DNA of 59,521 bases from an uncultured Pelagibacteraceae bacterium. Lineage in GTDB: Bacteria; Pseudomonadota; Alphaproteobacteria; Pelagibacterales; Pelagibacteraceae. Positions 1,973-12,564 of the stretch are shown here, piece by piece; positions within the stretch are counted from its first letter, which is position 1, and each line of letters opens with the position of its first letter. The stretch spans positions 1-59,521 of the forward strand of contig CACGOM010000006.1 in NCBI GenBank assembly GCA_902574705.1, in the 5' to 3' direction. The position numbers and the translations under genes are program-made. Below the pieces are notes generated by a model, which was not told where the DNA came from, made no database searches, and saw only the letters and a program-made list of their open reading frames with translations.

Positions 1973-1987
1973 GAACAAAATAAGAAC
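1973..1987 (+). promoter_or_regulatory. Putative LexA (SOS) box of alphaproteobacterial type
   Basis: GAACAAAATAAGAAC is an exact GAAC-N7-GAAC, the reverse complement of the GTTC-N7-GTTC direct repeat established as the alphaproteobacterial LexA site. It overlaps the predicted transcription start of umuDC and ends 4 nt before the ATG. Its position in front of a textbook SOS target makes a chance match unlikely. Confidence 0.7.
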
Positions 1988-1991
1988 ATTT

Positions 1992-2387
1992 ATGAAACTA
2001 ACAATACCATACTATTTACATAAGGCTGGCGCGGGTTTTCCATCGCCTGCAACGGATTATATAGAAGAGGATATAGATTTAAATATTCATCTAATCAAAA
2101 ATGTTCCTGCAACTTTCATTATTAGAGTTCAGGGAAAATCAATGATTGATGTAGGGATTAATGATGGAGATTTATTAGTTGTTGATAAAAGTTTAACACC
2201 GAGAGATTTTTCAACTGTCATTGCAAATGTTCATGACGAACTTGTAGTTAAAACTTTGGTTCAAGAAAGAGATAAAAAATTTTTAACATCAGGCTCTAAA
2301 AATTTCAACGATCGGATTTTAATTAATGAAGAAGAAGATATTTTTATATGGGGAGTAGTTACTTATGTCATCCATTCAGTATACTAA
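1992..2387 (+). CDS. umuD: UmuD, self-cleaving S24-family subunit of DNA polymerase V
   Basis: The 131-residue protein matches UmuD across its length. The autocleavage region reads AGAGFPSPA, placing the scissile bond at about Ala14-Gly15. The catalytic serine is S50 in GKSMID and the general-base lysine is K87 in ELVVKTL, the Ser-Lys dyad of the LexA/S24 family. After RecA-stimulated cleavage UmuD' joins UmuC to form the translesion polymerase Pol V. It overlaps umuC by 23 nt, so the pair is translationally coupled. A strong promoter and an SOS box lie immediately upstream. No Shine-Dalgarno is obvious. The N-terminal arm before the cleavage site is short compared with E. coli. Confidence 0.93.
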   Translation: MKLTIPYYLHKAGAGFPSPATDYIEEDIDLNIHLIKNVPATFIIRVQGKSMIDVGINDGDLLVVDKSLTPRDFSTVIANVHDELVVKTLVQERDKKFLTSGSKNFNDRILINEEEDIFIWGVVTYVIHSVY

Positions 2388-3642
2388 AAAAATAGCATTA
2401 GTTGATTGTAATTCTTTCTATGTTTCTTGTGAAAGATTATTTAATCCTAAAATAAGAAAAAAACCTGTTGTTGTTTTATCGAATAATGATGGCTGTATTA
2501 TTTCAAGATCCAACGAAGCAAAAGCTTTAGGTATTAAAATGGGTGAACCTTATTTTAAGGGCAAAGATATTATCATAAAAAATAATGTACAAGTTTTTTC
2601 ATCTAACTATTCATTATATGGAGATATCTCAAGAAGAGTTATGAGAACTCTAAAAAGATTTAATTCTGATATTGAGATTTATTCAATTGATGAAGCTTTT
2701 TTAGATTTGTCTAATTTTACCGATGAGGAAGTAGAGAAAGTTGGAAAAGAAATCAGAGCTACAGTTTTACAGTGGACAGGAATACCAACTAGTATTGGAA
2801 TTGCCAAAACAAAAACTTTAAGTAAAGTTGCAAATCATATTGCAAAAAAAACACAATCAGGAGTAACTAGTTTAATTGGAATTGAAAATATTGATCCAAT
2901 TTTAGAAAAAGTTGAAATTAATGATGTTTGGGGAGTTGGCAAACAATTAACTAAATTTTATCAAAAGCACGGAATTTATAACGCCAAACAACTTAAAAAT
3001 AAATCAAACACTTGGATTAAAAAAAGTTCAAATGTTTTGAGTTCAAGAACAGCTATGGAGTTACGGGGAATTCCTTGTATTGATCTTGAGACTACAACAT
3101 CAAAAAGAAAAAGTTGTGTAGTATCAAGATCATTTGGAAAAAGAGTAGAAAAATTTCAAGAACTAAGGGAAGCGGTTGCAAATTATTGTTTGAATGCATC
3201 TGAAAAAATCAGATCAGAGTCTTTGGTTGCAAAAGCAATCACGGTGTTTGTTAGAACAAGTCCTTTTCAAAGAAACTTTGGTTACTATTCAAATTCGAAA
3301 ACAGTAGATTTTCCAATTGCAACAAATAATAGTATTGAAACTGTTAAAGTTGCAATGTCAATTTTAGATAGTATTTTTAAAAATGGATATCGTTATCAAA
3401 AAGCAGGCGTGATGCTTACAGGCCTATCAAATGCAGAGGGAAAGAAAAATTTATTTTCATCTGAAAAGGATGAAAAGATAAATAGTTTAATGAGATCAAT
3501 TGATAACACTAATTACAGATATGGAAGATCAACTTTAAGTCTTGCAAGTGCAGGTGTTCAAAAAAGATGGAACATGAGAAGGCAATACTCTTCTAAAATA
3601 GATACGGCTGATTTTTATTGCCTGCCCACAATTAGAGCTTAA
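2365..3642 (+). CDS. umuC: UmuC, Y-family translesion DNA polymerase V catalytic subunit
   Basis: This 425-residue Y-family polymerase has the usual UmuC length. The first metal-binding aspartate is D14 in LVDCNSFYVSCER, and the palm acidic pair D109-E110 sits in YSIDEAFLDL. A helix-hairpin-helix region follows (GIPTSIGIAKTKTLSKVA, then DVWGVGKQL). The little-finger and C-terminal domains run to the end without interruption. It copies past damaged bases with low fidelity, together with UmuD' and RecA. It starts inside umuD and is the last gene of the operon. The next genes converge on it, with only 1 nt before a small minus-strand ORF, so no separate terminator is visible. Confidence 0.95.
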   Translation: MSSIQYTKKIALVDCNSFYVSCERLFNPKIRKKPVVVLSNNDGCIISRSNEAKALGIKMGEPYFKGKDIIIKNNVQVFSSNYSLYGDISRRVMRTLKRFNSDIEIYSIDEAFLDLSNFTDEEVEKVGKEIRATVLQWTGIPTSIGIAKTKTLSKVANHIAKKTQSGVTSLIGIENIDPILEKVEINDVWGVGKQLTKFYQKHGIYNAKQLKNKSNTWIKKSSNVLSSRTAMELRGIPCIDLETTTSKRKSCVVSRSFGKRVEKFQELREAVANYCLNASEKIRSESLVAKAITVFVRTSPFQRNFGYYSNSKTVDFPIATNNSIETVKVAMSILDSIFKNGYRYQKAGVMLTGLSNAEGKKNLFSSEKDEKINSLMRSIDNTNYRYGRSTLSLASAGVQKRWNMRRQYSSKIDTADFYCLPTIRA

Positions 3643-9335: not shown

Positions 9336-9752
9336 ATGGTTAAAATTTCTAAAACATACATTCCTAAAGAGACAGAGAAATATATGTGCCCTAAGCATTT
9401 GGCATTTTTCAAAAAGAAATTACAAGACTGGAAGACTGATTTAAAAAGGACAAGTAACGAAGCAATTTACAATAGTTCTTTAGATGATAATAGTACCTCA
9501 GCTGATATAGTAGATCAGGCTAGTTCTTATACTGAAAAAAACGTAGAACTGAGAGCTATTAATAGACAAATCAAATTGATTTCAAAAATTGAATCTGCTT
9601 TAAAAAGAATTCAAGATGGAACTTATGGTTTTTGTGAAGAAACAGGTGAGCCTATAGGCTTGAAAAGATTAATGGCTAGACCAGTAGCAACATTATGCAT
9701 CGCTGCCCAAGAAAAACATGAAAAAGAAGAGAAAGTATACGCTGACGATTAG
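9336..9752 (+). CDS. dksA: DksA/TraR-type transcription factor
   Basis: The 138-residue product (from the ATG at 9336) has the DksA layout: a helical coiled-coil tip region, then the C-terminal GFCEETGEPIGLKRLMARP zinc-finger-like segment and a final helix ending with acidic residues. DksA inserts into the secondary channel of RNA polymerase and, with ppGpp, tunes rRNA and amino-acid promoters. As in other alphaproteobacteria, only one of the four classical zinc cysteines is retained in the finger motif (plus one in ATLCIAAQE), so zinc binding is doubtful. An in-frame ATG at 9303 lies upstream of the predicted transcription start and is rejected. It converges on and overlaps the GST gene by 4 nt. 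Confidence 0.88.
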   Translation: MVKISKTYIPKETEKYMCPKHLAFFKKKLQDWKTDLKRTSNEAIYNSSLDDNSTSADIVDQASSYTEKNVELRAINRQIKLISKIESALKRIQDGTYGFCEETGEPIGLKRLMARPVATLCIAAQEKHEKEEKVYADD

Positions 9753-10378
9753 GGTTTCGGAATCTCTGAGGACTCATCTATAAACTTATAACCCCTTACA
9801 ACTGCTGGCCTTTTTGAAATTACTTCATACCATTTGCACAAATTTGGATAATTTTTTAATCCAATATCATGCCAATGATGTCTTGCAATCCAGGGCCATG
9901 TTGCTATGTCTGCGATTGAATACTCATCTCCAGCTAAAAAAATATTATTTTTTAAGTGATCATCTAAAACTTTGTAAATGCTTTTTGTAATATCAAAATA
10001 TCTCTTTTCGCTAATTTCACTTAAACCTTTATTAAAACGATAAAAAAAATGATACTGACCGATGAAAGGGCCTATCGATCCCATTTGCGCCATAAGCCAT
10101 TGATCAATTTTTAATTTATTTTCCAACCCGTAGAACTTCCCGCTTTTTTCAGCTAAATAAATTAAAATTGCACCAGACTCAAATACGGCTTCTTTATTAT
10201 TTGAATGATCTATGATAGCTGGTATTTTTGAAAAAGGACTAATTTTTTTAAATTCGGATTTAAATTGATCTCCTTTTGACAAATCTAATTTTGTTACTTT
10301 ATAATCTAAACCTATCTCTTCCAACATAATACTTACTTTTTTTCCGTTAGGTGTGTCAGAAGAAAATAAATCGATCAC
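9749..10378 (-). CDS. Glutathione S-transferase family protein (YfcG/YghU-like)
   Basis: The 209-residue protein has a thioredoxin-fold N-terminal domain starting IDLFSSDTPNGKKVSIMLEE, where the DTPNGKK stretch is typical of the nu-class GST / disulfide reductase group. SAIL-type glutathione contact reads VFESGAILIYLAE, and the helical C-terminal domain has YSIADIATWPWI. It probably reduces or conjugates thiol substrates with glutathione in the cytoplasm. It overlaps the upstream ferredoxin-reductase gene by 4 nt (ATGA), so it belongs to the ferredoxin-reductase operon. Exact substrate is unknown. Confidence 0.88.
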   Translation of the reverse strand: MIDLFSSDTPNGKKVSIMLEEIGLDYKVTKLDLSKGDQFKSEFKKISPFSKIPAIIDHSNNKEAVFESGAILIYLAEKSGKFYGLENKLKIDQWLMAQMGSIGPFIGQYHFFYRFNKGLSEISEKRYFDITKSIYKVLDDHLKNNIFLAGDEYSIADIATWPWIARHHWHDIGLKNYPNLCKWYEVISKRPAVVRGYKFIDESSEIPKP

Positions 10379-11391
10379 TCTTTCTTGCCTAACCTCTTAA
10401 GAAGATTTGTTGATGTTGTAGTAAATTCAAATCGGTATTTTTCATTTGGTCTTGCTAATTTGAAACAAGCTCTTGCAGCAAGAGCACCTTCATGGAAACC
10501 TGATAAAATGAGTTTCAATTTACCTGGATAAGTACATATATCTCCAACCGCGTATATACCTTTTTGGTTAGTTTCAAATTTCTCAGTATCCACATTTATT
10601 GTTTTTTTATCTAAATTTAACCCCCAGTTCGCAATAGGTCCTAATTGCATAATTAATCCAAAAAAACCAAGCACAAAATCTGTCTTCAGGGTTTTATTTT
10701 CTTTATTGTCATGAATAATATCTACGCTTTCTAGTTTGTTGCTGCCACTTACATTCTTGAGTTGATATTTTGTGTAAAGATTAATAGTTCCTTTTTTTTG
10801 TAATTCATATACTTTATCTAATGTTGACTGTGCGCCTCTAAATTCATCTCTTCTATGTATTAAATTTACCTTAGAGTCTTTTGATAATTCTATTGCCCAA
10901 TCTAATGCGCTATCACCACCGCCAAATATTGAGACGATTTTACCTTTAAAAATGGACTTATCTTTAACTGAATAAAAAATTGAAGTATTTTCAAATTTTT
11001 CACATTCTTTAGGATTAAACTTTCTTGGCTCAAAAGACCCTACTCCACCAGCGATAATTATATTTGGTGTATCAAATTCTGTTCCTTTGTTAGTTTTAAC
11101 ATTCCAGTTACCATTATTTTTTTTTACTTCATCAACTCTTTCACTTAAATGGAATTTTATATCGAATGGTTTTAGTTGATTGATTAAATTATTTGTCAAT
11201 TCTTCACCAGTACATTCTGGTACAGCTGGAATATCGTAAATTGGTTTATCAGGATATAATTCGATACATTGCCCGCCAATTTTATCCAAATTATCAACTA
11301 CTTCACAATTTAAACCAATCAATTTTAGTTGATGAGCAGTAAATAACCCTGTTGGTCCTGCTCCAATAATTAATGCATCAGTTTTTATCAT
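10375..11391 (-). CDS. Ferredoxin--NADP(+) reductase, thioredoxin-reductase-like type
   Basis: The 338-residue flavoprotein has a first dinucleotide-binding motif GAGPTGL at residues 10-16, a FAD contact region GGQCIELYPDKPIYDIPAVP-like (GGQ followed by YP and IYDIP), a second NADPH motif FGGGDSALDWAI, and the FAD-closing YAVGDICTYPGK. It lacks the redox CxxC of thioredoxin reductase, which marks the YumC-type ferredoxin/flavodoxin reductase. It passes electrons between NADPH and the ferredoxin encoded directly upstream, with which it shares one base. Position next to proteorhodopsin suggests a link of light-driven energy to the redox pool, but this is inferred from context alone. Confidence 0.9.
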   Translation of the reverse strand: MIKTDALIIGAGPTGLFTAHQLKLIGLNCEVVDNLDKIGGQCIELYPDKPIYDIPAVPECTGEELTNNLINQLKPFDIKFHLSERVDEVKKNNGNWNVKTNKGTEFDTPNIIIAGGVGSFEPRKFNPKECEKFENTSIFYSVKDKSIFKGKIVSIFGGGDSALDWAIELSKDSKVNLIHRRDEFRGAQSTLDKVYELQKKGTINLYTKYQLKNVSGSNKLESVDIIHDNKENKTLKTDFVLGFFGLIMQLGPIANWGLNLDKKTINVDTEKFETNQKGIYAVGDICTYPGKLKLILSGFHEGALAARACFKLARPNEKYRFEFTTTSTNLLKRLGKKE

Positions 11392-11711
11392 TAAACTTGT
11401 TTCTCTGGTAAATTTACTATCAGTCCATCTAACTCATCAGTAATTACTAGTTGACAGCTAAGTCTACTATTTGTTTTGGGTTCATAAGCTTGGTCCAACA
11501 TATCATCCTCACCCTCAGTTTTGGATGGAACTTTATTAAACCAATCCTCTTTGACATAAACGTGGCAAGTTGCACAAGCCATTCCTCCTCCACAATCTGC
11601 ATCAATTCCTGGAATATCGTTTTGAACTGCTCCTTCCATAACGGTTAATCCGTTCTCAACATTAATAGTATAAGATTTCCCTGTGTGTTCTATATAAGTA
11701 ATTTTAGCCAT
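11391..11711 (-). CDS. [2Fe-2S] ferredoxin
   Basis: The 106-residue protein has the adrenodoxin/ISC-type cluster ligands C40, C46, C49 and C86, in [17 protein letters not shown] and SRLSCQLVI. It carries single electrons in the cytoplasm. The next gene, overlapping by one base, is its likely reductase. It follows proteorhodopsin on the same strand, but a hairpin with a T-tract lies between them, so read-through must be partial or the ferredoxin has its own start signals. It is not beside hscAB/isc genes, so a special redox role rather than iron-sulfur assembly is likely. Confidence 0.92.
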
Positions 11712-11728
11712 TCAGGTTATATAGTGAT

Positions 11729-11771
11729 TAAAAAAAATAGGGCAAGTATGTAAAAACATACCCGCCCTATT
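11729..11771 (-). terminator. Rho-independent terminator after proteorhodopsin
   Basis: On the minus strand AATAGGGC and GCCCTATT (11736-11743 and 11764-11771) plus inner arms GTATGT/ACATAC form an interrupted hairpin. It is followed by a run of T. It sits 22 nt after the proteorhodopsin stop and 17 nt before the ferredoxin start. Confidence 0.8.
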
Positions 11772-11793
11772 AATTAAAGTTCGATAAATTTAA

Positions 11794-12564
11794 TTATCTT
11801 GCTCTAGCAGATGTATTTTGCATCGCTGCAGCCCAAATAACTAAACCAAATGCGATTTTGTTAATAAAGTCTGCAAGGTTGTAAATCACGTTAAGTGAGT
11901 TTGCATCTACACCACCAGTTAGGTAACCAAATACATAACCTAATGGGTAAATCGCCCAACCAATTGTTACGATCATTCTCATTGCACCAAATGCAGTAGA
12001 CAAACCTTTGTTACCGCTTTTAGCTGCCGCTTTACCAGCTTCACCTGAGAATACTTCATATAAGATGTAGAACCATCCAGCCATACCGATTACGAAACCA
12101 AGTAGTGCGTTGATGTATCCTGCTTCTCCTAAGTATCCACCGATTAGCATTACTAAAGATCCAATTAACAATCTCCAGAAAATACCACCTGGTACTTTTC
12201 TTACAGCTGCAAGAATTAAATAGAATTCAATCATCTGTAGTGGCACAGTGATTAGCCAGTCAATGTATCTGTATACAGTTGGTGACTCTCCAGTTTGCAC
12301 CCATACACCTCTCATGTACATATAGTGGATAAATGCAATACCAGTTACAAGACCTGCAACCGTTACTGAAGTTTTCCATCCAGATGCAACTGATCCTCTT
12401 TCCATGAAAAAGAATGCAGTAGCAGCTAACATACCCATTGAAATTACCCAGAAAGAAATTCCAACGAAGTCATCAGCAGCCAAGAGAACAGTTTCTGCGT
12501 TTGCAGCACCTGAAAAACCCAATAGGGCAACAGTTGCTAGCGCAAAAAGTTTAAGTTTTTTCAT
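11794..12564 (-). CDS. Proteorhodopsin, light-driven proton pump, predicted blue-absorbing
   Basis: The 256-residue protein has a signal peptide (cleavage near ANA, residue 23) and seven membrane helices. Retinal attaches to K236 in DFINKIAFG. The Schiff-base counterion is D102 and the proton donor E113, both in YIDWLITVPLQMIEFY; H80 matches the conserved histidine of helix B. Position 110, equal to residue 105 of the founding green pigment, is glutamine, which established work links to blue absorption. It pumps protons outward in light. A strong GAGGGAG ribosome site precedes the ATG, the promoter region holds two palindromes, and a terminator follows. Codon use is richer in G+C than neighbours, as expected for a highly expressed gene. 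Confidence 0.97.
   Translation of the reverse strand: MKKLKLFALATVALLGFSGAANAETVLLAADDFVGISFWVISMGMLAATAFFFMERGSVASGWKTSVTVAGLVTGIAFIHYMYMRGVWVQTGESPTVYRYIDWLITVPLQMIEFYLILAAVRKVPGGIFWRLLIGSLVMLIGGYLGEAGYINALLGFVIGMAGWFYILYEVFSGEAGKAAAKSGNKGLSTAFGAMRMIVTIGWAIYPLGYVFGYLTGGVDANSLNVIYNLADFINKIAFGLVIWAAAMQNTSARAR

Follow-up and report, generated by a model that had tools for sequence, protein, structure and literature searches.

The GAAC-N7-GAAC direct repeat ahead of umuDC is very probably the LexA operator (SOS box) of this operon. The repeat lies in a stretch of 59,521 nucleotides from an uncultured Pelagibacteraceae bacterium, which we will call the window. The site and the features that it belongs with are:

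1937-1942, + strand: TTGACA, the likely -35 element of the umuDC promoter (from the sequence; its promoter function is a prediction)
1973-1987, + strand: the LexA operator proposed for umuDC, GAACAAAATAAGAAC (other strand, GTTCTTATTTTGTTC), from the sequence and its conservation
1992-2387, + strand: umuD, 131 amino acids, with Peptidase_S24 as the only domain found (open reading frame and domain search)
2365-3642, + strand: umuC, 425 amino acids, with IMS, IMS_C, and DUF4113 domains (open reading frame and domain search)

An earlier note on this DNA had reported a perfect repeat at 1973-1987 and a perfect TTGACA ahead of it, and both are there. The note also had the box overlapping the start of umuDC, which needs correcting: the repeat ends 4 bp ahead of the umuD start codon (the ATG at 1992). 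The start of umuC overlaps the end of umuD, and domain search found no DNA-binding domain in the product of umuD. A Peptidase_S24 domain without a DNA-binding domain in one protein, and IMS, IMS_C, and DUF4113 in the other, identify the pair as UmuD and UmuC (DNA polymerase V). The -10 element of the umuDC promoter is weak in this genome; by eye, the candidates are TGTAAT (1958-1963) and TAATAG (1960-1965). Elsewhere in the window, a proteorhodopsin-like gene (11794-12564, - strand) lies near ferredoxin-like and thioredoxin-reductase-like genes (region 9749-12564; by eye). A proteorhodopsin-like gene in such surroundings is typical of SAR11.

Judged by counts, the repeat could have arisen by chance and play no part in regulation. 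The window contains one match to GAAC-N7-GAAC where 0.76 are expected, and 53 of 100 shuffles contain at least one. Across the genome there are 10 perfect matches, against 15 for the same pattern read backwards, so the perfect repeat is not enriched genome-wide. Seven of the 10 sites are well within open reading frames, and another is at the 3' end of an open reading frame, 111 bp ahead of the next one. The two sites at gene starts are those of umuD and lexA (the latter given a lexA start at the ATG of MLTKKQ). The earlier note had suggested a search for other sites; this search did turn up the perfect one at lexA, but the total does not exceed the control. Because the motif count is at chance level, the reality of the box rests on its position and its conservation.

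We therefore rely on the comparison of umuD promoters. The repeat is kept in 80 of 80 related SAR11 promoters as well as in the window. (The 80 rank best among at least 565 relatives and are therefore close ones.) Most of the promoter bases around the repeat vary across these loci, and the start of the repeat drifts from 15 to 22 bases ahead of the umuD ATG. The repeat itself has four spellings among the 81 promoters, which occur 65, 12, 3, and 1 times. We also inspected 30 loci from more distant SAR11. In 7 of them, umuD was absent or cut at the end of the contig; in the other 23, which have intact DNA upstream of umuD, the operator is always present. These 23 loci span nine genera (g1 to g9) from two families, with two of the genera in the second family. 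(Some of them recur in a comparison of loci with and without an adjacent umuD, below.) With the repeat kept while its flanks vary, and with a perfect site at lexA as well, a chance match is extremely improbable.

The earlier note proposed a LexA regulon, and it named the lack of a lexA gene as a finding that would count against this. The genome does encode LexA, at G000:C15 (PF01726, E = 5e-15; PF00717, E = 7e-30), so this objection does not arise. The translation contains an Ala-Gly that fits the motif of a LexA cleavage site. A perfect site, GAACTTTTATAGAAC, lies 37 bp ahead of the likely ATG of lexA (MLTKKQ). This site falls inside the longest open reading frame, which begins with a TTG and was delimited mechanically, so counting it as upstream of the gene requires translation to begin at the ATG of MLTKKQ. 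With that start, the evidence at umuD consists of both half-sites with the 7-bp spacer, a conserved position at an SOS-gene promoter, and a LexA that is encoded by the same genome and has an operator of its own.

We did not find recA in the assembly that the window comes from. In an HTCC1062-like genome, recA is 3.4 kb from umuD, and the stretch between them has SOUL-like, GFA-like, P-loop (kinase-like), and TolC-like genes (the last two were identified by eye). The window's contig ends within a P-loop kinase-like gene (1-878, - strand), which is 61% identical to its HTCC1062-like counterpart. Since the TolC-like gene and recA lie beyond this gene in the relative, the missing recA is probably in an assembly gap at the edge of the contig. 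In 4 of 4 relatives, the DNA 63-65 bp upstream of recA has GAACAAAATGTGTAC, which departs from the operator pattern at a single base. Sites with a single mismatch are frequent (8 in 18 kb, versus 8.9 expected), so the case for a recA operator rests on conservation and position. Overall, the SOS regulon of this SAR11 genome is probably small: lexA, umuDC, and probably recA.

Published data are consistent with such a regulon. Infection of HTCC1062 with the pelagiphage HTVC027P raises the expression of recA, lexA, umuD, and umuC, which the authors describe as the complete SOS system (PMC12753301). The upregulation was already in print (PMC12753301); the sites at lexA (in this genome) and at recA (in relatives) were observed here. 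In the part of the literature that we searched, we found no publication that names a LexA operator in SAR11, and no report of LexA binding or of induction by DNA damage in SAR11.

Given the site, its conservation, and the genes, all of which we observed, we infer that LexA binds and represses umuDC and that DNA damage induces the operon. LexA dimers would bind GAAC-N7-GAAC between the umuD promoter and the start codon, near the start of transcription, and bound LexA would block the transcription of umuDC. Upon DNA damage, RecA filaments would lead LexA to cleave itself, and umuDC would be transcribed. UmuD would then be trimmed, and UmuD'2C would carry out error-prone bypass of lesions. (The removal of LexA by RecA-stimulated self-cleavage and the action of polymerase V are well established.) The umuDC box is a standard alphaproteobacterial LexA operator: the SOS box of the earlier note is correct, and it is ordinary.

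The earlier note went further. It considered such a box unexpected for a minimal genome and, as umuDC sits with other accessory genes, suggested that it may have been gained as a unit that brought its own control. Some of our observations would fit a recent gain. The gene content on the SOUL/GFA side differs among relatives. Also, umuC is missing from 14 of 20 genomes of the same genus that were picked because they lack a neighboring element, RF01827 (see below), and G090 (genus g6, 95% complete) has that element but no umuC. However, in the remaining 6 of the 20 genomes, umuC is cut at the end of a contig, and the patchiness may reflect loss or gaps in the assemblies.

The wider distribution of UmuC argues against a recent gain. 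We found UmuC in all nine of the genera that we tested, from two families, and in 26 of 41 genomes (including the 20 that were chosen for lacking the element). Of the other 21 genomes, 20 have umuC, and the exception is G090. The identity of UmuC to the window's protein is 80-91% within the genus, 52-66% in different genera of this family, and 43-54% in the other family, so it drops roughly with distance. All umuD loci with intact upstream DNA share one operator. From this spread, this pattern of identity, and the common operator, umuDC looks, by and large, like an old resident gene that has been lost from some genomes or falls into gaps in some assemblies. Neither the surprise at finding the box nor the acquisition as a unit is borne out, and we consider a recent gain to be very unlikely.

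Next to the operator, on the side away from umuD, is an element that Rfam lists as a small RNA:

1261-1818, - strand: a gene for a SOUL haem-binding protein, downstream of the RF01827 element and a neighbor outside the SOS unit (open reading frame and domain search)
1844-1933, - strand: Rfam RF01827 ("SAR11_0636 sRNA"), divergent from umuD (covariance model, 100.7 bits)
1852-1860, + strand: TTATCCACA, a DnaA-box-like word at a near-fixed distance from the GANTC cluster (from spacing and the DnaA consensus)
1895-1899, no strand: GANTC site 3 (GATTC on the + strand; sequence and alignment)
1906-1910, no strand: GANTC site 2 (GATTC on the + strand; sequence and alignment)
1918-1922, no strand: GANTC site 1 (GACTC on the + strand; sequence and alignment)
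1946-1956, + strand: GTGGATAACTT, an inverted copy of 1849-1859 in the spacer of the umuD promoter (in the window's near relatives only)

The match to RF01827 is well above the gathering score of 67. Meyer et al. (2009) put this element forward as a separately transcribed RNA, which they inferred from its varying gene context (PMC2704228). Might the box be a shared operator that also governs the element? The predicted 5' end of the element is just 58 bp from the umuD ATG, and in part of the genus, the TTGTTC of the box could serve as a -35 element in that direction: by eye, several relatives have TTGTTC-N18-TACAAT or TTGTTC-N18-TTCAAT pointing towards the element. But in the window and its near relatives, 4 extra bases spoil this spacing, and the element is only a predicted transcript. 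More importantly, the box tracks umuD. It is present in 38 of 38 element loci with an adjacent umuD and in 0 of 39 without, and 13 umuD loci that lack the element in the stretch that we fetched retain the box. So the SOS box is not part of the element. We reject the control of RF01827 as the main role of the box, and we think it unlikely that the operator is shared.

We then compared the element across genomes. We located it in 159 of 159 loci, with 74 distinct sequences. (The loci were brought in by similarity to umuD or to Rfam and were found again by the core with at most 9 mismatches, so the set is ascertained towards the core; also, some of them are one contig fetched twice.) All 74 sequences have three GANTC sites, with a spacing of 12/11 in 71 and of 11/11 in 3. 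The middle bases are G, A, and A in 65 of the 74, and they differ at site 1 in 3 sequences, at site 2 in 6, and at site 3 never. Other letters are invariant too, including the AAA after site 3 and GAACAT, so the conservation of the element is not that of GANTC alone.

Genome-wide, we found the triple GANTC with 12/11 spacing in 128 of 144 Pelagibacteraceae genomes and in 0 of the 53 sister-family genomes. A genome with the pattern has it once, except that two copies are frequent in genus g5. The reversed-pattern control gave 3 matches in 197 genomes. (One match to the triple GANTC, G173:C2, is clearly a different site.) Of the 16 Pelagibacteraceae genomes without the 12/11 pattern, 3 carry the element at 11/11 spacing, and the other 13 have no Rfam match to RF01827 either. 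In g5, which often has two copies (L128-L132, L134, L135, L137-L140, L145, and L148; L160-L170, L172, and L174), one copy is usually after a gene of 406-408 amino acids and the other mostly precedes a GFA-family gene (11 of 13).

A second word accompanies the GANTC cluster. In 151 of the 159 loci, TGTGGATA follows the core at a distance of 21-24 bases; the word is altered by at least one letter at the same place in 7 and inverted in 1. This word, and TTATCCACA in the window, resemble the consensus of a DnaA box. TTATCCACA is not enriched across the genome (7 + 7 matches, versus 8 + 6 for the reversed control), so the DnaA reading rests on the consensus and the spacing. In the window and its near relatives, the copies at 1849-1859 and 1946-1956 form a perfect 11-bp inverted repeat that has DnaA-box-like cores and flanks the GANTC cluster.

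Is the element a structured RNA? Its central predicted hairpin consists of the GANTC words paired with each other. Meyer et al. noted that covariation supports none of the base pairs in the conserved stem (PMC2704228). Among 57 of our sequences, the pairs within the invariant words hold, and the pairs that adjoin the GANTC words often fail (31, 42, and 22 sequences are paired for three of these pairs). In a wider alignment (39 of 60 dereplicated sequences were used in the test), 168 of 500 column shuffles reached the covariation score of the Rfam structure and 179 of 500 reached its percentage of paired positions. The Rfam structure does beat versions of itself that were slid along the alignment (75.8% paired, versus 33-45%; score of 0.117, versus 0.053-0.081), which we attribute to two causes: the palindromes are repeated, and the structure was derived from such sequences. 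RNAalifold keeps only four GANTC pairs, all of them invariant, at -0.45 kcal/mol and with a covariation term of 0. In these alignments, we did not find pairs that are maintained by compensatory changes, as in a structured RNA. In favor of an RNA, a word that loosely resembles a -10 element precedes the predicted 5' end in many genera, and part of the sequences have a GGTTG/CAACC-type pairing of their ends (both by eye).

GANTC also suggests a role at the level of DNA, via the methyltransferase CcrM. The RAMA domain is typical of CcrM, and profiles for RAMA and GcrA match 7 of 7 genomes, with RAMA broken in one. (In a g4 genome, at G158:C1:621780-622060, RAMA is in two frames with an internal stop, and the GANTC element is kept; L224 and L225.) A CcrM homolog is known from SAR11 (PMC3973325), and GANTC methylation occurs in Pelagibacter (PMC9516812). 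So the element is a cluster of CcrM sites in a genome that, by the RAMA profile and PMC3973325, encodes CcrM. It is quite possible, if short of probable, that RF01827 is a DNA site and not a structured RNA. The site would comprise the phased GANTC words, GAACAT, and TGTGGATA, and a protein would read its methylation as a signal for the passage of the replication fork. DnaA, GcrA, or another protein may be the reader. With similar caution, we suggest that the GANTC sites are about one helical turn apart and that the element is independent of the neighboring genes. A methylation-linked role in the DNA seems about as likely as a role as RNA.

We considered three other roles for the element. First, it is unlikely to be a cis-regulatory leader, because at seven loci in g2, g3, and g4, the only gene that follows is on the opposite strand. 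Second, it does not encode a repeated peptide, because the repeats are of 11 and 12 bp and one of the spacings is variable. Third, a DnaA-box-like word beside a GANTC cluster had suggested an origin of replication. In the HTCC1062-like genome, the minimum of the cumulative GC skew is at about 0.28-0.31 Mb (from 40 windows of 20 kb, or 0.8 of 1.31 Mb) and the element is at 0.622 Mb. We rejected the origin because this minimum is about 0.3 Mb from the element. We sampled the skew of three further genomes for a mid-replichore element, with 20 windows of 20 kb each, which did not place the origin safely.

The operator implies that a streamlined SAR11 genome retains a compact, old damage switch of the LexA type for a mutagenic polymerase. 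This bears on how the mutation rate varies in abundant ocean bacteria that are under sunlight and phage attack. If RF01827 is a DNA site, then it would matter more than the operator: the Rfam entry would be corrected, and the element would be a fixed and testable chromosomal site for methylation-linked control of the cell cycle. (One study reported finding no ortholog of ctrA in the SAR11 lineage; PMC2877005.)

Finally, we compared both features to known systems. Rfam describes RF01827 as an sRNA; our wider sampling found no covariation beyond that of shuffles and an invariant GANTC triple with GAACAT. As a DNA site, the element would be a SAR11 counterpart, by analogy, of the enterobacterial sites that sense hemimethylation. 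The umuDC operon of E. coli is under LexA control and is inducible by damage. SAR11 has the same gene pair, in the same order and with overlapping frames, and the same damage-inducible logic would apply, but the E. coli operator is a palindrome, and the SAR11 operator is of the alphaproteobacterial type. In Caulobacter crescentus, the LexA operator is GTTC-N7-GTTC (PMC12700426), with the same half-sites and spacing as the SAR11 box. Even the spacers are similar (GTTCttgttatGTTC in an example from Caulobacter, PMC12700426, and GTTCTTATTTTGTTC in SAR11). Both bacteria have operators before lexA and before mutagenesis genes. Unlike Caulobacter, the genome of the window has few sites (counting perfect repeats genome-wide), and its mutagenesis genes are umuDC, instead of the imuABC of Caulobacter (PMC12700426).
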